From the IMG/VR virus record IMGVR_UViG_3300034180_000036, positions 1 to 56,503 of that record: a stretch of DNA of 56,503 nt. One strand, given 5' to 3'. The DNA is from a virus. Below the pieces are notes generated by a model that saw only the letters and a program-made list of their open reading frames with translations, searched no databases and had not been told where the DNA came from. This document shows, piece after piece, positions 22,350 to 34,225 of the stretch. Each line of letters starts with the position of its first letter. Positions within the stretch are counted from its first letter, which is position 1. Made by a program: the position numbers and the translations under genes.

Positions 22350-23552
22350 CTACAGCGCGAGACCCAGGTTCCGGGCCTTGGCGACCGCGGTGATCTCCTC
22401 GAACTTGCAGTCGACCTTGAGCGTGATCGCGTACTGGTTCACGCGCTTGAAGATGTCCCGATCCTTCTCGATCCGGATGTCCCGACCGATCGCGATGAGG
22501 AGGTTCTGCATGGGCGTGAGGATGATCTGCGGCTGCGCGTTGTACGTGACCTTCACCGTCTGGCCGTCGGTGATGCCCGCGAGCGCGATGCGCGCGATCG
22601 TGCCGGCCGTCGCGTCGAGCGTGTAGTCGGTCGACTCCACGTACGGCGTGGTCGGCGTGTCGAGGCCGATCGTCGTCGGCGTCACCACCACGCTGGACAC
22701 CGGCGAGTGACGGAGCGCGACGGCCGTGGTGGCGTTGAGCGTGACGTGCTCGACCACCGGCGGCTGGAACGGCCACAGCGGGACCTCGACGGCCTTGATC
22801 CCCTGCGGGTTCGGCGCCATGCCCTCGATCGCACGGTCGCCGGCGCCCGTGGCGCGCGCGGCGAGCCGCTCGACGTACAGCGACCACAGGTCGCTGGACA
22901 TGTACCAGCGCAGCGCCGCCTTGTTCCGGCGGAACTTCGTCGGCAGAGCGCGGAGCAACCGCGAGAAGATGTTGTGACCGATCGCGGCGCCCTGCGCGTC
23001 GACGATCGCGCCGCTGTCGGCCTGGCGCGACCAGCCCGAGATGAGCGCGAGATACGTGTCGAGCACGTACTGAGTCGAGCTCGCCGGGCCGCCCGGGAGG
23101 TTCGACGCGAGCGTCGCCGGACCGACGGTGTCGCCGAGCACGTAGAGCTCTTCGAGGTTGTTCGCGACCACCGTCGCCATCAGGCGGATGATCGTGTCCT
23201 CGATGTCGTCGCCCTCGATGTTGTGCTCTTTGAACGAGTCGCCGATCTCGAAGGGCACGATGATCTCGTGCGGGGTCAGCGTGATCTTCGAGGTCGTGAT
23301 CCCGACCCGTCGGCCCGGATCCTGCGCCTCGGCCGCCGGCATCGCGACGCGAGAGCCAACGCCGATCTTGTCGACGTCGAGCGTCTCGTTGCGGAAGCGG
23401 ACGATGCGCGCGTTGTTCTTCATCGAGGTCTCGTCGATGACGTAGTCGATGAACTTGTCGCTCTGCGCCGCGTTGAGCTTGCCCGAAGCCGCGATCGCAT
23501 CCGTGGTGATCGCGGCCTTGTTGACGAGCTCCTGGTTGGTGATGCCACTCAT
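22350..23552 (-). CDS. Major capsid protein, HK97-fold
   Basis: The 400-residue protein follows the scaffold-like gene and has features of HK97-fold capsid proteins. The N-terminal arm 'LNAAQSDKFIDYVIDETSMK' is like the 'F.dyi.des' pattern of related myovirus capsids. 'HEIIVPFEIGDSFKEHNIEG' (E-loop/P-domain region) and 'LWSLYVERLA' follow. The C-terminal part has 'QIILTPMQNLLIAIGRDIRIEKDR' and 'AITLKVDCKFEEITAVAKAR'. The strong ribosome site GGGAAGAACC and moderate size agree with an abundant shell protein. Confidence 0.88.
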   Translation of the reverse strand: MSGITNQELVNKAAITTDAIAASGKLNAAQSDKFIDYVIDETSMKNNARIVRFRNETLDVDKIGVGSRVAMPAAEAQDPGRRVGITTSKITLTPHEIIVPFEIGDSFKEHNIEGDDIEDTIIRLMATVVANNLEELYVLGDTVGPATLASNLPGGPASSTQYVLDTYLALISGWSRQADSGAIVDAQGAAIGHNIFSRLLRALPTKFRRNKAALRWYMSSDLWSLYVERLAARATGAGDRAIEGMAPNPQGIKAVEVPLWPFQPPVVEHVTLNATTAVALRHSPVSSVVVTPTTIGLDTPTTPYVESTDYTLDATAGTIARIALAGITDGQTVKVTYNAQPQIILTPMQNLLIAIGRDIRIEKDRDIFKRVNQYAITLKVDCKFEEITAVAKARNLGLAL

Positions 23553-23602: not shown

Positions 23603-24460
23603 CTACAGCCCGATCCCGTTCCAGAAGCCCTCGTTCTTCTTGACCTCGGTCGTGGTTTCGTCCCCGCCGTTGGGGCTCGCGTTGGCCGGCTCGCCGCGGG
23701 CCTTCTCGATCTTCTCGAGCCGCGCGCCCTGATCGTCGATGCTCTTCTTGAGCTCGACGACCCACGCGGGCGGGGTGTCGTCTTCGGCCTTCTTGATCGG
23801 CGAGTCCTCGCCCATCTTCGGCTTGTCGGGCGTGCCGCCGGCGCCCTGCGGACGGACCGCCGAGCGAACCGTCGCGTTCGACGGGAGCATCGCCATCTTC
23901 TCGAGGTAGGCGGCGAACGAGACCGGGTCCATCTCGAAGGCGGCTTCGCTCATCTTCTCGAGGCCGTCGAAGAGCGACTTCGCGCGAGCCTCGGTCACGA
24001 CCTGGCCCTTCGACACGGCGATCGCCGTCTGCCCCATGTCCGCGAGCACCTCGTGCAGCGACTTCGCGACGGGCTCGGCCTTCTCGGTCTTCGCCTTCTC
24101 GGCCGCCGCCGCTGCCGCCGCCTTCTCGGCCTCGGCCTTCTCGGTCGCGAGGGCCTCCATGGCCTTCTCGATGTCGGCGCCCGCTTTCGCGATCTCCTCG
24201 GCGGTCTTCGCCGTCTTGGCGCGCTGCAACGCCTCGGCCAGCGCGGGCGGCATCTTGCCGCCGCCCTTGGCCTTCTCGGTGTCGACAGCATCGGCGCCGT
24301 CGGCGCCGGCGTTCTTCGTGATCGTCTCGAAAGCGCTCATCAAAGGATTCCTCCGTTTGGTTACCAGGAACCGACGCCGGTTCGCGGCTTTGTCCACGAG
24401 CGAGACCTCTTCGACGTCGGTGTCGAGGAGCTCACGCGGTTTTTTGGGGCGAGTGCCCAT
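23603..24460 (-). CDS. Scaffold-like capsid assembly protein with XkdF-type N-terminal motif
   Basis: This 285-residue acidic, coiled-coil protein precedes the capsid gene. Residues 16-31 carry EEVSLVDKAANRRRFL, a motif usually seen at the start of prohead proteases and scaffold precursors. The middle is an Ala/Glu/Lys heptad-rich coiled coil (about 65-125). The C-terminus has another helix (ELKKSIDDQGARLEKIEKA). Scaffolds shape the procapsid and are cleaved by the protease encoded next upstream. ATG 24460 lacks a clear ribosome site; the conserved motif makes the later ATG (MSAFETITKN) less likely. Confidence 0.8.
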   Translation of the reverse strand: MGTRPKKPRELLDTDVEEVSLVDKAANRRRFLVTKRRNPLMSAFETITKNAGADGADAVDTEKAKGGGKMPPALAEALQRAKTAKTAEEIAKAGADIEKAMEALATEKAEAEKAAAAAAAEKAKTEKAEPVAKSLHEVLADMGQTAIAVSKGQVVTEARAKSLFDGLEKMSEAAFEMDPVSFAAYLEKMAMLPSNATVRSAVRPQGAGGTPDKPKMGEDSPIKKAEDDTPPAWVVELKKSIDDQGARLEKIEKARGEPANASPNGGDETTTEVKKNEGFWNGIGL

Positions 24461-24494: not shown

Positions 24495-27400
24495 CTACCC
24501 TTCGCGATCGTCGTCGTCTTCCGCCGGCACCGTCGCGATCCCGCCGATCGAGAAACCGGTGATCGACCCGTTCTTCACGCGGCGCCACAGGTCGTCGGAA
24601 AGGACCCGAACGGTCATGACCCAAGAGCCCTTTTTGACGTCCTGGCCGCCGAGCTTCATGTCGACCGGCGCGATGTAGCTCTCTACGAGTTCGATGCCCA
24701 GCTCGCCGAAAACGGCATGCATGACACCCATACGGGTCCGACGGTTGTACGCCGCAAGGAAACGGTGCGCCGCGCGCTCGATGGCCGGCGCCCGGATGAA
24801 GTCGTTGTGCGCGTCCGTCTCCATGGGGGTGCCGGGCTCGAGCACGATCCCCGTGACGAGCCGCTTCTCGCCTTCGGCTTTCTCGAGAGCGACCAGCCGG
24901 AGATCTCCGACCGGCCCGTCTTCTTCCTCGATGATCGCTTTCGTCAGCCGCCGGAAGCGCCATGAGTCATCGCGCTTGATCAGGTCGAACGTGCCCGCCA
25001 TCGACGAGCCTTTCAGCACAAACCGAGCGAGCGTGTCCTCGTCAGCAAGCACGTCGAGCGCGCCGACGGCGAGTCGCGACATCGACTCGGCGCCCGCCCA
25101 ATGCCCTTCGGGAAGCTCGCCGTCAATGTCGATGACATCCGGCCCCGCCGCCTTGGTGATCGTCACCGCGTGCTCGCCGCCTTCGATCGCTTCGCCGACC
25201 TCGATCGCGATCGGATCGCGCGCACCGCCGAAGTCCAGATGAAGCACCTGGTGACCGCCCACGTCGTGAAGCGCGAAGCGCGCCGGACGGCCGCCGGTTC
25301 GGTCTTCGTCGAAGCTCGCGGACCATCCATCATCGGCCCGCTTCAGGATCAGGGCGCGGTCGCCGAGGTCGAATCGGATCCCGTCCTCGTCTTCGAGCTC
25401 GGTCCGCTTCGCGATTCCGTGTGCCGCGAGACGATACGTCGGGCTGTCTTCCGTTTCCCCGTGCGTGTCCAACCAGAGTCCCGGCTCCCAACCGAGCCGC
25501 ACCGCAGGGCCCGGATCGGACCAGGCGACCGGGAGCTCGGCGGCCTTCGCGAGACGCACGCGACCACCAACATCGACCGATTCGAGCGACCACGCTTCGA
25601 CGACGTCGCGGTCACCGACTCGGAACTCGAGGCGCGCGCGCGTTCCGTCGAAGACCTGGTGAAGCGCCCATCGCTCCCACCCGACGGCCTTCTTCACCGG
25701 GAGCGGGCGCACGCCGTCGACGTCTTCCCCGTTCGACGCGAGACGATCCTCAGCGTTCTCCATGTGCGCGTCACACACCGGGATGAACGCCTTTCCCTCA
25801 GCCCACAGCACCGCCTTCTGCGCGGGGGCATCACAGAACTTGCACCGGTGCGCCCGCTCGAGCGGCTTGGCGCGGAACTCGACTGCGAGACTCTCGTCGA
25901 GCGCCTTCTCTGTGTCCTCATCGAGCCGCGGGCCCGCCTTGCCCTTGCCCCGGAGGTCGACGTCAACGGCCGCCCCTGCGAGGAAGGAATCGACGCGCGC
26001 GCGCGCCCATGAGCGCGCATCGACTCCGGCTCTCTGAACGGGTGAGAGCATTGCGGCGCCGCGGTGCCATGCGACACGGAGAGCGCCGAGTTCGGCTTTG
26101 TGCTCTTCCGCCTTCGCCGCGAGCTCAGCTTCGACGTCCAGGCCCAGAGTGCGATCGCCGGCACGCAACGCGGCTTCGACCTTCGCCTTGTGTCGTCGCC
26201 ACACCTTCGTCGCCCATGCGCGTCCCGCTTCGCCGCCGCGCAGAAGATACGAGACCCACTGCGGAGACGGCGCCGACGGGTCGCCCCAGCCCGCCGCGCG
26301 TGGCGCGCGTGCGTTCTGCGCGAAGAACGCGACCATCTGTCCGACAGCGTCGACCGGCACAGCACGACCAGCGTCCAGGTCGTACGCGCGCGCGATCGCG
26401 ACCGGCGAGCCACCACGCGCGAAAGACTCGAAGAGCTCGAGCCCACGGCGCGCCGCGGCGGCAACATCCTTCGGAGGCGTCACGCCATGCGTTTCGGACT
26501 TCGCGATCTTCACCCCGAAGTTGTTGAAGATCTTGATCTCGGACGACCCCGAAAAGCCGCCGGTCCGCGCCGACATCGTCGACTCGACGAAGCGCGAACC
26601 GAGGTCGAGTTCGCCTTGAAACGCGACGATCGCCTTGCCCTTCAGATCCTTCACGGCCTGCTCGAACTTCACGACGTCGAAGTTGGTCCACGCCTCGCCG
26701 ATGCCCGGGATCACCTTGCCGGGCGCGCGCCCGCCCGACAGCCACGGCGGATCGAAGAAGAAGACCGTCCGTGGTCCGTCGTACTTCGCCAGCTTCTTCA
26801 GCGCATCGCCTTCGACGAGCTCGACGTTCGCCAAGCGCTCGCGCCACTTCTCAAGGTTGCGCAGGAAGACAGACGCATCGCGTGCCTGAACCGATGCGGA
26901 GAAGTCGGGCCCGACGCCGGCGCCACGCACGGAGAAGTGATTGAGGTACTTCGCGCGATACGCCTGGCGCCGCGGATCGCCCTTGAACTTCATCGCCTTG
27001 AGCCGCGCGAAGTTGGACGGCGACCAGCGCCAGAACTGCTTTCGCATCCACGCGAAGTCGCTGTCGTCGCCGGTCTTCAGAAAACGCAGAACGGCCATGA
27101 CGTCGGGATCGATGTCGATGATGACCTCTCGATCGCTGGGCTCCTTCGCGAAGAGCACGGCCGCGCCGCCGGCGTACGCCTCGACGTACGTGTCGTGTTC
27201 CGGGAGCATGTCGACGAGCTGTCGCGCGAAGGCTGACTTGCCCCCAGGGCTCTTGAGCGGCTTCGGGATGCCGGTCGCCTTCTCGACCGCGACAACGGCC
27301 CACGGATCGCCGTCGATCGCGAAGCGTTGGGCTTTCGCCACCTCCGCAAGTTCAACGTCTTCCGCAAGGTCGAACTCGAGCACGCGAGGATCCACGTCGC

Positions 27401-28262
27401 CGATCGCGCTGTACGGGTCCAGGTCTGCGCTCTTCAGAACCGGCGCGCTGAGCGCGTCGAGTTCGGACGGGGCGCTTGGGTGCTCGAGGCCGCGCCGTCC
27501 GAGCTCGGCAACGATGAGAGCGTGTCGGTTCACGTCGGCGCGCAGATCGTCGGACGCCTCGGCATGAACGCGCGCGTGCTCGATCAGAAGCGCCGACGTC
27601 CGCTCGGTGCGCGGGTCGACCGACTTGCGGATCTTCTGACCGCCCAGGCTCGGCAGCACCCGCTTTTTGAAGTCGGCCATCGGGACAACGAGCACCGGCC
27701 CAAGGTGCTCGGCCGCCATGTGCTCGAGGTAGCTGTCGATCGCTTCGGCGCGCGAAGCGTAGCCGAGCATCACCTTCCACTCGTCGAACTGGCCCGGCTC
27801 CATGCCGAGGTTTTCGATCTCCCATTCGCCGGCGAGCTGCGCGATCACGAAGGCATGACTCGCGTCTTCCACCGGCCCGACGTACACGTCGAGCTCCTCG
27901 CCGTCCGCTCCGGTCGTCCCGCGGATGTAGCCGTAATCGGCCTTCATCTCGCGCCGAAAGTCGCTGTCTTCGTACTCGCGGACGGAGCCCGCCGGCCACT
28001 CGACCATGACCGGGATCCCTTGGAACGTCCGCTTCGTCTGCACCTCGTCGTTCTTGAGCAGTCGACGGAGCTTCGCTTGTCCGACTTCGCCGAGAAGATT
28101 CCACTGATCACGGACAGCGCGCAGGAACGGATCGGCGTCTCGGATCGCGCCCGCGATTCCGTCGCCGAGTCCGCGCTCGGGGGGCGTCTCGGTCTTCTTG
28201 GTGAGCGCCTTCCGGCGCGCGCGCGACGTGCGCGGGGCGATGAAGGGCGACGGCCTCGTCAT
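24495..28262 (-). CDS. Giant multidomain (polyvalent) protein: pyrophosphatase-like + Dam-like methyltransferase + XkdF prohead protease
   Basis: The protein has 1255 residues from ATG 28262; GTG 28337 is a longer alternative. Residues about 80-200 match the pyrophosphatase-like domain of phage polyvalent proteins (VMVEWPAGSVR; DYGYIRGTTGADGEELDVYV at 109-128). Residues about 335-595 are a DNA adenine methyltransferase-like domain: SPGGKSAFARQLV (motif X region), DTYVEAYAGGAAVLF (motif I), and FFFDPPW at 501-507, a DPPW variant of DPPY. Residues about 806-835 hold a Cys/His cluster (CKFC, VCDAH). The C-terminal about 145 residues are an XkdF-type serine protease: MGVMHAVFG (His1182), VESYIAP (Ser1195) and GSITGFSIGG. 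It should process scaffold and capsid. The attached enzymes may be injected with DNA. Confidence 0.85.
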   Translation of the reverse strand: MTRPSPFIAPRTSRARRKALTKKTETPPERGLGDGIAGAIRDADPFLRAVRDQWNLLGEVGQAKLRRLLKNDEVQTKRTFQGIPVMVEWPAGSVREYEDSDFRREMKADYGYIRGTTGADGEELDVYVGPVEDASHAFVIAQLAGEWEIENLGMEPGQFDEWKVMLGYASRAEAIDSYLEHMAAEHLGPVLVVPMADFKKRVLPSLGGQKIRKSVDPRTERTSALLIEHARVHAEASDDLRADVNRHALIVAELGRRGLEHPSAPSELDALSAPVLKSADLDPYSAIGDVDPRVLEFDLAEDVELAEVAKAQRFAIDGDPWAVVAVEKATGIPKPLKSPGGKSAFARQLVDMLPEHDTYVEAYAGGAAVLFAKEPSDREVIIDIDPDVMAVLRFLKTGDDSDFAWMRKQFWRWSPSNFARLKAMKFKGDPRRQAYRAKYLNHFSVRGAGVGPDFSASVQARDASVFLRNLEKWRERLANVELVEGDALKKLAKYDGPRTVFFFDPPWLSGGRAPGKVIPGIGEAWTNFDVVKFEQAVKDLKGKAIVAFQGELDLGSRFVESTMSARTGGFSGSSEIKIFNNFGVKIAKSETHGVTPPKDVAAAARRGLELFESFARGGSPVAIARAYDLDAGRAVPVDAVGQMVAFFAQNARAPRAAGWGDPSAPSPQWVSYLLRGGEAGRAWATKVWRRHKAKVEAALRAGDRTLGLDVEAELAAKAEEHKAELGALRVAWHRGAAMLSPVQRAGVDARSWARARVDSFLAGAAVDVDLRGKGKAGPRLDEDTEKALDESLAVEFRAKPLERAHRCKFCDAPAQKAVLWAEGKAFIPVCDAHMENAEDRLASNGEDVDGVRPLPVKKAVGWERWALHQVFDGTRARLEFRVGDRDVVEAWSLESVDVGGRVRLAKAAELPVAWSDPGPAVRLGWEPGLWLDTHGETEDSPTYRLAAHGIAKRTELEDEDGIRFDLGDRALILKRADDGWSASFDEDRTGGRPARFALHDVGGHQVLHLDFGGARDPIAIEVGEAIEGGEHAVTITKAAGPDVIDIDGELPEGHWAGAESMSRLAVGALDVLADEDTLARFVLKGSSMAGTFDLIKRDDSWRFRRLTKAIIEEEDGPVGDLRLVALEKAEGEKRLVTGIVLEPGTPMETDAHNDFIRAPAIERAAHRFLAAYNRRTRMGVMHAVFGELGIELVESYIAPVDMKLGGQDVKKGSWVMTVRVLSDDLWRRVKNGSITGFSIGGIATVPAEDDDDREG

Positions 28263-28290
28263 GCGCGGGAGGTTACCGCGCGGGCGATCG

Positions 28291-28524
28291 TCAGCGACGC
28301 GCTTTGGCCTGAGCTGCGAGAGCCCGCGCTTTGTCACGCATCGATGCGCGCGTCTTTGCTTTCACTTTGACGCCGGCCTTGGCCAGCGCAGGAGCGAGCT
28401 CGTCAGCGCGAGAACCCATCGTCAGCTTCAAGGCCTCGACCTCATCGCCCGTGATCTCGCCCTTGGCCTTCGCCCACGTCACGGCCGCCTCGATATCTTT
28501 GGGGGCTATGTCGCGCATCCGCAT
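28291..28524 (-). CDS. Small basic helical protein, 77 aa
   Basis: ATG 28524 is chosen; a GGAG lies 13 bases upstream. A second ATG two codons later is possible. The protein has 'RDIAPKDIEAAVTWAKAKGEI' and 'GDEVEALKLTMGSRADELAPALAKAGVKVKAKTRASMRDKARALAAQAKARR', showing Lys/Ala-rich helices. No family was recognised. It lies between the MuF-like fusion and the giant protease fusion in the head operon, so it may be virion-associated. Confidence 0.5.
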   Translation of the reverse strand: MRMRDIAPKDIEAAVTWAKAKGEITGDEVEALKLTMGSRADELAPALAKAGVKVKAKTRASMRDKARALAAQAKARR

Positions 28525-28534
28525 GCTTGTCTTT

Positions 28535-30952
28535 TTACTCCGCCATCTCGAAGCCGTCAAGCTGTGCCTTCAGGTCCCGACGTAGCTTGCCGGACAGGGC
28601 AGCCTTCGCCTTCCCCTTGGCGCCGGCTTCCTTCAGCGGCAGCGACTTGACGAAGTGCGCCACGTATTCATCCGAATCAGCGAATATCTTCACGGACTTG
28701 CGCATCTCGAACGCCGCCGTTTCGACCATCCCTCGAGCGACATCATCGCCGACCTGAGCCGCACGCGCCACGACCCCGATCAGGATCTCGATCGGCTCGT
28801 CGTAGTTTCCAGCCGCGTCAGCAAGCGCGAGGGGAACCCCGAATTTGTCGGCGATGATCCGGCGGGCCGCGAGCTCGGTCGTCGCCTCTTCAACCCACAG
28901 CGCCGCGCCCGTCGGCGCCGTCTCGATGATCGGCGACGTCGAGTGGACGGTCTCGTGAACGAGGGTCTTGAACCCCCACATGTCGAGGATGTCTTCGCCG
29001 TCGTTCGCGGCCTCGTCCCACTGCCCCCGAGCCGTCTTCCGCGCGAATGCGACCGCCGACTCGTGCGTCTCGTCGGTCACGCCGATGCGGCCCGTCAAGT
29101 CGTTGAAGCCGCCGGCGTCCGGCGGGTGGTCGGGCGGATCGACCTGATAGAGCCCGCGCCCCGCCTTCCGCGTTCGGTCTTGGATCAGGTCGTGGTTCAC
29201 CATGCCGCGCTCGTCGACGAGGTTGTTGAGCTGTCGACGCACAGCCGCCTCGTCACCGCTCTCGAGCGCTTCGGCCAGCGCCTCGATGTCGAGGGGGCCA
29301 TCCGGCGTCACGTCGCTCTTCGGGTAGCCTGCGAACGCAGGGGCGTGGTTCGGCTCGGCGACCTCCGAAGGCGCCTTCGCTTTGTCTCGAGCGCCGCGCG
29401 CGCGCGGAAGGTTCTCTCGACCAGACTTGCCCTTCGAATAGAGCGGCTCATCGATCGGCGGACCGGGGTCGAACATCGCGTCGTCAGAGACGTCGACCGT
29501 GCATCGACACCGGAAGTGGAACGGCGGGAGGCAGAAGCCGGCCGCGGCAAGATTGCGCGCGTCCGCTCCGCCTTGCGGTCCCGGCTTCGGCGAGATGTCG
29601 CGCAGCGCGCCGGCGCGGAGCCATGGATGCGCAACGCGGACCTCGTCCGGATCCTTGGCGTCCGCCACCGCGCCAGCGACCGCTTCACCCTGACTCACGG
29701 TGAAGACCTTCCCGTCCATGTGGCCACAGACCGGGCACGTGCGCTCGTCGCGCGGGTTGGTGATCTCGTATCGCGTGATCCCCGCGCGGCGGAAAGAGGT
29801 CAGAGAGCCGTTCACGCGAGCGACCGTCGCGGTGTTCGCCGCCAACGACTCGAAGTAGGCCGCCTGAGATCCGCGCCAGCCCGACGGCGTCGTTGCGTGT
29901 CCGAGCTCGTTCTCGATGGCTTCGCGAATCGATCGCCCCGCTCTCGTCCTGTCCTGGCCCCCGCGAATCATCACGTCGTCGACGGTCTTCCTCAGCGCCG
30001 CCCGGACGTTCTTCTCGTAGTGGGTGCCGGTCCAGAAGACGACGTCGCGCCGCAACGCACGGATCGCCGCTTGGTCTTCGACGTTGAACGAAGTCGCCAC
30101 GCGAAACTTCGGCGTCCGGCCGCCGCCGCCGCTTCTCCCGCTCGACGGTGGCGGCGCGGGCGGGGGAGATGCCGCCGCGATCGCCTTCTTCGACGCTCCG
30201 AACTTCGCGGCGAACTCGGCCGCATCGTCCGGATGTACCTCGACCGGAATCACGTTGTTGCCGAACTGGCGCCACGCCTCCGTTCTGTGGCGGCCATCGA
30301 CGATGCTCGGCGTGCCGTCCCAAATGCTCATGCGCGGCATGTGGACGGCCTGCTTTCCTTTCGCCTCCGAGATGAACGCCTTCGCTTGAGGGAGCCGCCC
30401 CTTGATTGGCTCCGCAGTCCCGCCCGGACCGATCAGGTAGCCGCGCTCGCTCGGGCTCGCGGCCATCGCACGATACATTCGATCGACGTCGACGAGCACG
30501 ACGGTCCCCTTGCGTGTGGGGTCGGCGCGCTCCCAGACGATCCCCCCGATCGTCTTCGCTGCGCTGTCTTGCGAGAGGCCCTTCTTGATCGGGGCGAAGA
30601 CGAAGTGCCCCGTATCGTACTGAAGCGAGCCGCGCACCTGGCGCGTCGCTTTCAGCCAAGCGATCTCGCGCGACAAGCGATAGATCCGTTCGACGATGTT
30701 CCCCGAGATCGGTTCGATCTCAGAACCCCACGCCCTCATCTCGCCGTCAACAGCCTTCATCACCGCGTCGGTAGACGTGGCGCCGGCGCCGGCCTCGAGC
30801 GCGGCGCGCGCGCGCTTCCGCCATGTCGTCCACCAGATGTCGCGTAGCTGTGTTTCGAGCCTCGCGATCTGCGCGACCTGGCTGACGCCGGCGACCTTGG
30901 CGATCGCCGCGTCGACGACGATCAGTCGCTCAATCGTCGCGAGAGAGCTCAT
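28535..30952 (-). CDS. MuF-like minor head protein fused to ParB-like and metallopeptidase-like domains
   Basis: The 805-residue protein begins 22 bases inside the portal gene. After a helical N-terminus, residues about 145-250 resemble a ParB-type domain (SIVDGRHRTEAWRQFGNNVI, with DGRHR). Residues about 300-495 are the MuF/SPP1 gp7 region: AGITRYEITNPRDERTCPVC with CPVCGHMDG, and later PPFHFRCRCTVDV. Near the C-terminus residues 666-670 read HETVH, followed by a WVEEATTELAARR helix, a HExxH...E arrangement typical of zinc metallopeptidases. MuF proteins enter the head with the portal. In many phages their C-termini carry exchangeable effector domains. Confidence 0.8.
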   Translation of the reverse strand: MSSLATIERLIVVDAAIAKVAGVSQVAQIARLETQLRDIWWTTWRKRARAALEAGAGATSTDAVMKAVDGEMRAWGSEIEPISGNIVERIYRLSREIAWLKATRQVRGSLQYDTGHFVFAPIKKGLSQDSAAKTIGGIVWERADPTRKGTVVLVDVDRMYRAMAASPSERGYLIGPGGTAEPIKGRLPQAKAFISEAKGKQAVHMPRMSIWDGTPSIVDGRHRTEAWRQFGNNVIPVEVHPDDAAEFAAKFGASKKAIAAASPPPAPPPSSGRSGGGGRTPKFRVATSFNVEDQAAIRALRRDVVFWTGTHYEKNVRAALRKTVDDVMIRGGQDRTRAGRSIREAIENELGHATTPSGWRGSQAAYFESLAANTATVARVNGSLTSFRRAGITRYEITNPRDERTCPVCGHMDGKVFTVSQGEAVAGAVADAKDPDEVRVAHPWLRAGALRDISPKPGPQGGADARNLAAAGFCLPPFHFRCRCTVDVSDDAMFDPGPPIDEPLYSKGKSGRENLPRARGARDKAKAPSEVAEPNHAPAFAGYPKSDVTPDGPLDIEALAEALESGDEAAVRRQLNNLVDERGMVNHDLIQDRTRKAGRGLYQVDPPDHPPDAGGFNDLTGRIGVTDETHESAVAFARKTARGQWDEAANDGEDILDMWGFKTLVHETVHSTSPIIETAPTGAALWVEEATTELAARRIIADKFGVPLALADAAGNYDEPIEILIGVVARAAQVGDDVARGMVETAAFEMRKSVKIFADSDEYVAHFVKSLPLKEAGAKGKAKAALSGKLRRDLKAQLDGFEMAE

Positions 30953-32732
30953 AGCTGAGACCCGTGACCTCGTCCTTCCAGGTCCGCTCGAGCCGCTTCT
31001 GAATCGACTCGAGGCGTTCGACGATCAGGCCGTCGAGCTCGAGGGCGCCTTCGTCGTCGAAACCGGTCAGCGACTTCACGAGTTCGAGCCGTTTCAGCGC
31101 CGTGACTTGCTGGCCTGGTTCCGCCGGATCGGCCTGGTTCTTCACGGCTTCCGCCATCGTGAGCGAGAACGGCACGTCCGCCGGGAAGTCTGGCGGGAGG
31201 GGCGGGAGCTCTTGCCCGAGGATGTCGGTCATGACCAGTCGCGCGATCCGCGGGGTCATGCCGCCCGTCTTCTCGGACCCCGCGAGGATCTTCACGAGCT
31301 CCGCGTTGTCGGTCGTGTTCGGCGAATTGCTCTTGAACTTGAAGAAGCGCACGCCCATCCGAGGGAAGATCGACCGGTTCACGAGCTCGTCGAAGTGCAT
31401 GCGCTCGGGCGCGAAGATCTGTTCGTCGCCGAGCCGCCGACTCGTGTCCGCCGTCGAACGCGTGTAGTCGTCCGACGCGCCAACGAAGATCGGCGGCATG
31501 CGGTAGAGGCGATGCGCGAGCCGCTCGCCCGCCTCGACGTACTTCTGAAACATGGCGTCGCGGATCTGGGCCTGGTTGAGGGGCTCGACTTCGATCTTCA
31601 TCTGCCCGCCGTCTTCGCCGTCTTCATCGATCGGCTCGGCTTCGACGACGAGGAACTTGCTGTAGTTCTGGCCTTCGGCGATCACGCTCTCGGTGAAGTC
31701 GGTGATTCGCTGAATCGAACCATCGGTGAGCTGCCCGTTGCTCACGAGGAGCATCATCGACGGGATGTTGTTCGACGTGAGCGTCTTGTAGTTCACCTCT
31801 TCGGCCGCACGCATGCCGTACAGCTTCAGAAGGCCGCCGATGTAACGCGGGATCCCGTACGGCGATCGCGCGCTGTAGATCGAGAAGTGGATGATCTCGT
31901 GCGCGAGCTCGCTCGGGTCGACCTTCTTCCCCTCCGGGATCACCTTGCCGGTCTTCCGCGAAATCCGCCGCGGGTCCCCGAACTCTTTGAAGAAGACGAA
32001 GCCCGGCTCGCTGACGGCCTGTGCGCCGAAGGTGCCCGCGAGGTAGCGCGCTTGAAGAAAGCGACGAAAGCGTTTCCGCCGCTGAATCTTCGAGACCTCC
32101 CACGAGCCATCTTCCTTGAGCTCGAGGATCGGCACGTCCGCGGTGATCGCTTCCCCATCTTGCGCACAAAGCCGCATCTGGTACGCGCGAATGTGCTCGA
32201 AGCCCTGAATCTCGCCGTTCTCGCCCGGCAGTACCTCCCAATACGCGTTGCCTGTGCGCTCGAGATCTTGCCGCGTTCGCTTTCGGATCTCCGTGAAGGG
32301 GTGGTCGAGCGAGGCGTAGTTGAAGAAGTTCTCGAGGCGCACGCGCTCGGCGCGGATCTGCCCGAGCATGACCTCGGCGATCTGTCGCTTCGCCGCGTCG
32401 CTTCCACCTCGAGCCGCCGTCTCAAGATCGGGAACGTTCGCGCGAGCGACGTAGGCGTGCCCGAAGCCGTCGATGTTCTGCGCCATCGCGTCGATGACCT
32501 GACCGAGCTCGTGGTTCTGTTCTGCGAGCACGGTGAGCGCAAGCGGATCGAACGGCGGAACGATCGCCTGACCTTCCCCCATCGAGTGGAACGGATCATC
32601 GGTGAGTGCGGCCGATGCTTCGGTGGCCTTCTCGATCGGGACGACGATCGCGCGCGCTTTCGCTTGGCGAAGCGTCCTCTTCGCTGCCTTCTCGGCATCA
32701 CGCGCCTGCTCGCTCGCTACTGCATTCGACAT
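30930..32732 (-). CDS. Portal protein, PBSX/XkdE-like
   Basis: The 600-residue protein follows the terminase (TGATG overlap) and precedes the MuF-like gene. It contains 'VIDAMAQNIDGFGHAYVAR', 'LERTGNAYWEVLPGENGEIQ', 'LAHEIIHFSIYSARSPYGIP', 'YGMRAAEEVNYKTLTSNNIP' and 'LAHRLYRMPPIFVGASDDYT'. These segments are characteristic of PBSX-type portal proteins: the wing beta strands, the 'YG.P....' stem region and the crown. Portals form the dodecameric DNA channel of the head. The length is normal for the family with a C-terminal extension. Confidence 0.9.
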   Translation of the reverse strand: MSNAVASEQARDAEKAAKRTLRQAKARAIVVPIEKATEASAALTDDPFHSMGEGQAIVPPFDPLALTVLAEQNHELGQVIDAMAQNIDGFGHAYVARANVPDLETAARGGSDAAKRQIAEVMLGQIRAERVRLENFFNYASLDHPFTEIRKRTRQDLERTGNAYWEVLPGENGEIQGFEHIRAYQMRLCAQDGEAITADVPILELKEDGSWEVSKIQRRKRFRRFLQARYLAGTFGAQAVSEPGFVFFKEFGDPRRISRKTGKVIPEGKKVDPSELAHEIIHFSIYSARSPYGIPRYIGGLLKLYGMRAAEEVNYKTLTSNNIPSMMLLVSNGQLTDGSIQRITDFTESVIAEGQNYSKFLVVEAEPIDEDGEDGGQMKIEVEPLNQAQIRDAMFQKYVEAGERLAHRLYRMPPIFVGASDDYTRSTADTSRRLGDEQIFAPERMHFDELVNRSIFPRMGVRFFKFKSNSPNTTDNAELVKILAGSEKTGGMTPRIARLVMTDILGQELPPLPPDFPADVPFSLTMAEAVKNQADPAEPGQQVTALKRLELVKSLTGFDDEGALELDGLIVERLESIQKRLERTWKDEVTGLSYELSRDD

Positions 32733-34225
32733 CAGATCACCCCAAAATCGCGACGTTGCCGACGGCGGCGCCGCTTCTTTCGCGTTGCGTTGGCCAGGTC
32801 GAGAGCGTCGAAGCCGTCGACTGGTTTCTTCGGGAAGCCGACGAGCTGATCGATCAAGCGGTGCATCGTCGGGTGCTCACGCCGAAAGAACACGCGCTGT
32901 TGCTCGAAGAGCGGAGAGATCTTCCACGCGCGCGTCGTCTTGTCCTTCACGGTCTGGATGCCGACGACCTTCAGGTCGGGCCGCTCGTCCTTCACGTTCT
33001 GAACCTGCGAGTCCTGATATGCGTTGTTCTCGCAGCCGACGAGGTTCACCTTCCATTCGTCGTGATGGTAGATGATCCGCTTCGTTTGCTTCGAAAAGCG
33101 GTAGTGGCCCCACTCGAAATCGACCACGTAGATCGTCACGTCGTCCGAGCGAATGTTCCGCCCCTTCACGCCGATCGTCACGATCGAGAATCCGTCGGGC
33201 TCTGACTCGCCTTCCTTCACTTCGCCGATCGCGAGATCGACGCCCGAGAAGTAGACGAGATCGTCCCACGGGATTTCGGAGTCATCGAGCTGTTGGCAGT
33301 CGTCCCACTGGAAGATCTCGCCACGCATCGCCTCCGTGTCGCACTGGTACTGTGCGAGGAAGATAATGCGGCCGGAGTTCTCGCGGATCTTCTGAAAGTG
33401 CTCGGACGAATACTTCTCGGGCCAAGGGCTTCGATCGTCATCGTCGAGAGCAGGAATCACTTGCGTCGTCTTCGCGCAGTCCTTCTTGCGAAGGTGCCCA
33501 TAGAGATCGTCATGGTGGTAGCGCGTGCCGAGCCGATGGATCTCGCCGCGGTGAGGAACCTCCGGATCCGGAGGTTCGAGCGTGGGCATGAGCGTCTGGT
33601 AATACCAGGTCTTGGTGCGCTCGCGCGACTTCGGCGTGCGCGCGTTGTCTTCGTCGACGAGGTCGTCCGCGAAGATCACGTCGTAGTGCTTCGACACGAT
33701 CGCCGAGTCGACGCCGCCGCACGAGATCGAGGCTTCCTTCGTGACCTTCGTGCGCCCCAGAACGTCGATCTCTTCGGTCGTCCACTTCGTGGTGACGCGC
33801 GGATCGTAGAAGTCGCCGAAGACCTCGATCAGGCGATCGTTGTTCTCGAGATGCGCCTTGATCTCCGCGAGCATGTCCTCGGCGTTGCCCTTCGTCTTGG
33901 ACGCGATCAGAATGCGCAGATCGCGGTTCTTGCATAGCAGCCAAATCGCGCGCGAAACGGTCAACGTCGTCGTCTTGCCGGCGCCGCGGAACGCGAGCTG
34001 AAGGTTGTCGGGGTGGCGAAACTGCCACTGCATCATGCGCAGGTGGAACGGCTGGACTTGGTAGCCGAGGATCTCTTGCGCGAGGATGTCGATCCGACCG
34101 TCGTTGATGATCCGCCGGCGTAGGAACTCGTTTTGAGCGTCCCGCGTCTGGGCGAGCAAGCGCGCGAGCTCGTCGCGATCGTCTATCGCGTCGAGGTCAC
34201 GGATCGGGATGAGGTCGGTGGCCAT
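32732..34225 (-). CDS. terL: Terminase large subunit
   Basis: The 497-residue motor has Walker A FRGAGKTT at 79-86 and Walker B DVIFADD at 182-188. A C-terminal RNase H-like nuclease starts with FSGVDLAIG (Asp330), then VVDFEWGH and, near 474-482, DGFDALDLA. The C-terminus is very basic (RKKRRRRRQRR). It packages DNA through the portal encoded next. The ATG at 34225 lies inside the 3' arm of a perfect 12-bp hairpin and has no visible ribosome site, so translation may depend on coupling or on opening this structure. Confidence 0.95.
   Translation of the reverse strand: MATDLIPIRDLDAIDDRDELARLLAQTRDAQNEFLRRRIINDGRIDILAQEILGYQVQPFHLRMMQWQFRHPDNLQLAFRGAGKTTTLTVSRAIWLLCKNRDLRILIASKTKGNAEDMLAEIKAHLENNDRLIEVFGDFYDPRVTTKWTTEEIDVLGRTKVTKEASISCGGVDSAIVSKHYDVIFADDLVDEDNARTPKSRERTKTWYYQTLMPTLEPPDPEVPHRGEIHRLGTRYHHDDLYGHLRKKDCAKTTQVIPALDDDDRSPWPEKYSSEHFQKIRENSGRIIFLAQYQCDTEAMRGEIFQWDDCQQLDDSEIPWDDLVYFSGVDLAIGEVKEGESEPDGFSIVTIGVKGRNIRSDDVTIYVVDFEWGHYRFSKQTKRIIYHHDEWKVNLVGCENNAYQDSQVQNVKDERPDLKVVGIQTVKDKTTRAWKISPLFEQQRVFFRREHPTMHRLIDQLVGFPKKPVDGFDALDLANATRKKRRRRRQRRDFGVI

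Follow-up and report, generated by a model that had tools for sequence, protein, structure and literature searches.

The window analysed here is a stretch of viral DNA of 56,503 nt (IMG/VR virus record IMGVR_UViG_3300034180_000036; 67% GC), and its minus strand carries a set of head genes in the order terminase-portal-MuF-polyprotein-scaffold-capsid, the head-gene context that an earlier sequence-only reading had assigned to the prohead protease of the long central gene. The genes and the domains of the polyprotein are as follows, with residues of the polyprotein numbered from the possible GTG start (GTG = 1).

22350..23552, minus strand: major capsid protein homologue (PHROG 1623)
23603..24460, minus strand: scaffold-like protein with an N-terminal VSLVDKAANRRRF motif
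24495..28262, minus strand: multi-enzyme head protein ending in XkdF; 1255 codons when counted from the ATG, with a possible GTG start at 28337
24531..24887, minus strand: predicted XkdF prohead protease domain (PF14550), residues 1151-1269, with conserved His and Ser
24903..25295, minus strand: PE2, second LigD phosphoesterase-like module, residues 1015-1145, homologous to PE2 of the relatives
25323..25670, minus strand: PE1, first LigD phosphoesterase-like module, residues 890-1005 (phmmer E 2e-5 to the related frame L195)
25734..25856, minus strand: Cys/His cluster CKFC...CDAH, at residues ~831-857
25893..26120, minus strand: DUF5824-like module, residues ~740-815, aligning to CRP-831 and to the part of L081 where Pfam calls PF19141 in L081
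26163..26504, minus strand: GW module (PHROG 2859-like, all-helical), residues 612-725
26502..27284, minus strand: predicted D12 adenine methyltransferase domain, residues 352-612, with the motif YVEAYAGGAAV and DPPW
27438..27617, minus strand: short helical module, residues ~241-300, common to many relatives (phmmer E 7.5e-8 to L207)
27660..28037, minus strand: InPase domain (PF18823), residues 101-226, E 1.2e-26, with GADGEELDVYVGP and FDEWKVMLGY kept
28535..30952, minus strand: MuF-type protein with an HETVH zincin-like C-terminal part
30930..32732, minus strand: portal protein
32732..34225, minus strand: terminase large subunit

The minus-strand frame 24495..28337 is open for 1280 codons from GTG, or 1255 codons from the ATG at 28262, and a small frame ending at 28291 lies upstream of it, with the MuF gene. 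We take the polyprotein to be one coding frame because its 1280 codons exceed the longest stop-free frame obtained by chance in 30 random windows of matched trinucleotide make-up (maximum 814 codons, mean 581), and because the GC content by codon position stays at about 0.7/0.45/0.83 with one frame kept from end to end, junctions included. The ORF of about 1255 codons described in the sequence-only reading, with an InPase-type domain, a Dam-like domain with DPPW, a Cys/His cluster and a C-terminal XkdF, was thus recovered with all four parts in one frame; its domain calls were right, but it had missed the helical, GW, DUF5824-like and LigD phosphoesterase-like modules as well as the membership of the protein in a varied class. 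That an error in assembly or a frameshift merged separate genes into a single frame might be argued from the long chance frames that GC-rich DNA yields, as the random maximum illustrates, and from the window being one virus record without independent reads. The constant codon-position GC across the junctions speaks against such an error, as does the order helical module-D12 being common to three related contigs (L195, L197 and L237), and it is disfavoured because D12 is found fused to XkdF again in independent contigs, where the neighbouring genes are the same, fusions of this kind being found in many of them. We therefore regard a merging error as extremely improbable, and the fusion of InPase, D12, Cys/His cluster and XkdF in one frame as almost certainly real.

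In the N-terminal InPase domain, which matches the PF18823 family, the acidic motif is kept as GADGEELD and FDE by reading, and the domain matches the C-terminal part of the portal of phage Pa193 (PDB 9b41) with E 2e-15; no InPase was found in other XkdF fusions within the set of related frames. The D12 domain was recognized by Pfam (PF02086, residues 364-533, E 1.1e-9) and by PHROG (E 3e-59), its profile matches the structures of Dam and DpnM, and both motif I and motif IV are present. By family match and motifs it is a predicted N6-adenine methyltransferase. The Pfam calls of InPase, D12 and XkdF agree with PHROGs.

The modules in the middle of the chain are also met in other phage head proteins. 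Other phages have the GW module fused to portals, to MuF, to proteases of the S78 and XkdF types or to capsid proteins; comparison of its structure with known folds gave no match, and no function was found for it. Such fusions, to portals, MuF, S78 proteases or capsid proteins, are very common in environmental phages (L012, L063, L081, L031, L041, L084 and L065), and in phage PaBG the module stands alone beside topoisomerase genes. The CKFC...CDAH cluster occurs also in head proteins of a Gordonia phage (portal-MuF) and Arthrobacter phage Rizwana.

The C-terminal domain is a predicted XkdF prohead protease by family match (E 3.3e-30, 105 bits against a cut-off of 24), by its His and Ser, and by the position of the gene between the portal/MuF and capsid genes, as for XkdF proteases. 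The two residues, already noted in the sequence-only reading, are each conserved in 100 of 103 related frames. The scaffold-like gene lies about 35 bases downstream of the polyprotein gene. The MuF protein (805 aa) has, besides its zincin-like C-terminal part, a DGRHRT stretch (ParB-like by eye) before the MuF domain, and the MuF of a relative, L217, has a similar HEEIH part. The MuF protein (28535-30952) is a probable second polyvalent head protein.

Relatives were collected by scanning IMG/VR with XkdF alignments, which gave 103 non-redundant XkdF frames. The window's included, 34 of them are at least 600 aa long (up to 1768 aa) and have their XkdF domain no more than 40 residues from the C-terminus; the statement of the sequence-only reading that XkdF proteins have a few hundred residues thus fits those cultured phages that were inspected (154-411 aa) and fails for these environmental frames. 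Among the 34 long frames we counted as cargo ATP-dependent DNA ligase (20), nucleotidyltransferase (12), D12 (11), MT11-type methyltransferase (6), uracil-DNA glycosylase (UDG; 4), 2H phosphoesterase (2), and MBL and InPase as single cases, where the counts other than those confirmed by Pfam come from iterated profile searches with our own seeds, so that single assignments may be wrong. Pfam directly confirms fusions of ligase, UDG, methyltransferase, 2H and D12 to XkdF, that of D12 in L184, L195, L197, L203, L205, L206 and L223. Nearest in plan to the window protein is L195, with the order 2H-helical-D12-PE-Cys cluster-XkdF, in which a 2H phosphoesterase takes the place of the window's InPase. 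The D12 motif I and DPP[YW], and the ligase KxxG, are kept in all aligned members. In the 1743-aa polyprotein of L104 (1126-6354), an intein with a LAGLIDADG endonuclease splits the ligase right after the catalytic KKYDG.

When the full protein was used as a single query against viral contigs, it gave no match. Among 50,697 phages no record covered 80% of the protein, the top matches being single-domain; none of the cultured phages was seen to carry the fusion, although one of weak similarity might have escaped the search. In the genome collection scan only one XkdF was found, an ordinary one (L179), and an XkdF alignment across very diverse phages gave no usable pattern. Some short XkdF genes of phages (Lactococcus, Pseudomonas, Rhizobium) are labelled 'DNA methyltransferase'; this was rejected as a sign of fusion, those inspected having 154-349 aa. 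The window polyprotein is one member of a varied class of XkdF-tailed proteins and not unique, and the differing enzymes carried on the same protease by related phages suggest a modular enzyme loading of the virus particle.

The segment just N-terminal of XkdF is modelled with a fold like that of LigD 3'-phosphoesterases; the window's version of it is degenerate. For the PE2 model (mean pLDDT 64) the top three PDB matches were all LigD 3'-phosphoesterases (3n9b, 3p43 and 3p4h), at probability 1.00 but with E 0.006-0.02 and global TMq 0.32-0.34. When the PE1 profile of the relatives was compared with 177,635 PDB sequences, the sole match was a LigD phosphoesterase, a weak one (E 0.028). Such modules were detected in 32 long frames with PE1-type seeds, the window being matched only via its own and the PE2 seeds; its PE1 compared weakly with that of the relatives by hhalign. 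The signature HxxxxxxHxDxR is invariant in 15 of 15 aligned PE1 modules of the relatives, whose PE2 has lost it. By reading, this catalytic signature was not found in PE1 or PE2 of the window, and because of its absence the two modules of the window are probably not catalytic. A stretch like these modules occurs also in an 867-aa ligase protein of the archaeal ANMV-1 virus (L252:3200-5800), where the match stops short of XkdF.

In the long-frame loci with enough flanking sequence, homologues of the window's terminase, portal, MuF, scaffold and capsid proteins flank the polyproteins in the same order. On a tree of the capsid proteins the kinds of cargo are scattered. Placing D12 on it takes 7 changes for 7 rows, and well-supported branches force at least 5 of these. 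Some rows labelled 'none known' are truncated contigs; this inflates the changes of that label, and D12 may also have gone unseen in a few rows. Of the sisters L105 and L205, the first carries ligase and the second D12, and in the nearest capsid relative of the window, L217 (64% identity), the protease is bare and about 185 aa long. The head module therefore does not include the cargo as a fixed component; cargo is often exchanged, being swapped between near relatives while the gene order stays conserved. The existence of such bare-protease relatives with the same head genes, together with the missing catalytic signature of both window phosphoesterase-like modules and its loss from PE2 of the relatives, would fit N-terminal domains that are structural, serving as internal head filler or DNA-binding modules with recognisable folds and no enzyme use. 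The D12 and ligase motifs, being invariant across divergent members, argue for selection on catalysis, and we judge a structural role quite improbable.

Polyvalent proteins of phages and conjugative elements were defined by Iyer et al. 2017 (PMC5512222), who found assemblin-like peptidases always at the C-termini and proposed roles for InPase. The window protein resembles them in its effector-type enzymes within a phage structural context, in the same Pfam InPase and in a C-terminal capsid-type peptidase; at least two unrelated effector-type domains stand in one chain, and the gene lies in a head operon. It differs in that the peptidase is XkdF and that the cargo of the relatives consists mostly of enzymes of the kinds that repair or modify DNA (ligase, UDG, LigD-like phosphoesterase); 'DNA ligase' and 'XkdF' are absent from the main text of that paper. 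The window protein thus fits the polyvalent-protein concept and extends it, with delivery to the recipient cell being what we infer. Among the open-licence papers searched, none was found that joins XkdF with ligase, UDG or methyltransferase; nor did we find any account of a single phage lineage in which XkdF is the peptidase and the enzymes joined to it are varied ones for repairing and modifying DNA, in particular ligase with LigD-like phosphoesterase, and UDG.

Other known systems share parts of this arrangement. In phage P1, DarB is a virion-borne methylase, and the prohead protease cuts DarA, an antirestriction protein that resides in the head; an adenine methylase in a head protein is common to both, whereas the Pro protease and the Dar proteins of P1 are separate, and the protease and methyltransferase of the window form one polypeptide. 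Portal gp19 of Pa193 likewise has the same kind of InPase attached to a virion head protein, on the portal C-terminus instead of the protease; the virion portal chain includes the InPase, and the InPase region is without density. The XkdF proteases (PF14550) of Lactococcus phage 28201, Dulem virus 37 and Limnohabitans phage DC31 have the same domain in the same place between portal/MuF and capsid, but such proteins have 154-411 aa, the protease stands alone or is followed by a scaffold-like sequence in the same chain, and DC31 carries only a GW module. Bacterial LigD combines phosphoesterase and ligase; the relatives likewise have a single chain with ATP-dependent ligase, nucleotidyltransferase and LigD-like phosphoesterase, which, unlike LigD, is fused to a capsid protease and has a nucleotidyltransferase that by eye is Pol-beta-like and not the LigD polymerase.

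With moderate confidence in the whole chain of steps, we propose, in line with the sequence-only reading, that the window encodes a polyvalent-type head protein that is packaged in the procapsid and cleaved by its own XkdF, its enzymes being delivered with the DNA. Because prohead proteases work inside procapsids, the fused chain should be carried into them, so that the C-terminal protease would double as a procapsid address label and the polyprotein would be built in along with the scaffold. There the protease would cleave the scaffold as well as the linkers of its own chain, the cuts probably falling after Lys in [LIV]xK|A, so that the InPase and the adenine methyltransferase would be set free within the head, beside the DNA packaged in it. 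At infection the freed enzymes would enter with the DNA, the methyltransferase marking the incoming DNA and the InPase clearing pyrophosphate or a nucleotide signal in the infected cell; in related phages the same slot would hold DNA ligase, 3'-phosphoesterase, uracil-DNA glycosylase, nucleotidyltransferase or other methyltransferases. Packaging, cleavage and delivery are favoured because of the precedents of P1 (DarA cut, DarB virion-borne) and the Pa193 portal InPase. The enzymes might instead work in the producing cell or the procapsid, with DNA methylated during packaging, pyrophosphate removed by InPase and nothing injected: the protease fusion accounts for the capsid location by itself, and D12 methyltransferases are often free phage genes acting in the cell. 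Since a free methyltransferase could do this job without a capsid tag, and since UDG, ligase and 2H cargo fits poorly with work inside the procapsid, we find this rather unlikely.

For the lineage as a whole we advance more tentatively the possibility that XkdF serves these tailed phages as a modular cargo carrier: ligase, LigD-like phosphoesterase, nucleotidyltransferase, UDG and methyltransferases would be synthesised in a single chain with it, separated at [LIV]xK|A inside the procapsid and delivered to repair and mark the arriving genome, as a virion-borne kit for end repair and modification. If delivery is correct, the maturation protease would be both loading tag and release mechanism for enzymes delivered at infection, and some phages would bring ready-made repair and methylation enzymes instead of depending on early genes. 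The cargo would be predictable from sequence, there would be a testable cleavage rule, and the arrangement would offer a natural design for protein loading into capsids.

As candidate XkdF cleavage motif we propose [LIV]xKA, which is about 3-4-fold enriched in polyproteins (observed/expected 162/55, n=34), scaffold (100/25), MuF (49/13) and capsid proteins (31/10); the portal gave 13/9, and the terminase is not enriched (2/4), nor is the reversed motif [LIV]xAK (53/55 in polyproteins and 9/25 in scaffolds). In the polyproteins, 104 of 153 sites lie outside the annotated domains, in 41% of the residues (nominal p 1.5e-11, a value inflated because related sequences are not independent and because the motif was first noticed in the same sequences on which it was tested). 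For [LIV]xEA and [LIV]xRA in polyproteins no bias to regions outside domains was found; scaffold and capsid show enrichment of [LIV]xKR as well. The Lys/Ala-rich helices of the scaffold add to the inflation of the p-value, and unannotated domains may lie in the 'linkers'. The enrichment at domain junctions and in procapsid-internal proteins gives indirect support to cleavage by XkdF, the candidate sites in the window being:

24879-24881, minus strand: candidate cleavage site K1153
24939-24941, minus strand: candidate cleavage site K1133
25152-25154, minus strand: candidate cleavage site K1062
25545-25547, minus strand: candidate cleavage site K931
25689..25691, minus strand: codon of candidate [LIV]xK|A cleavage site K883 in PVKKA
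27279-27281, minus strand: candidate cleavage site K353
27333-27335, minus strand: candidate cleavage site K335

The VSLVDKAANRRRFLVTKR motif at the N-terminus of the scaffold, which contains the [LIV]xKA pattern, is on a separate scaffold gene in the window; in Lactococcus phage 28201 and Dulem virus 37 it is the XkdF protein whose N-terminus bears the motif.
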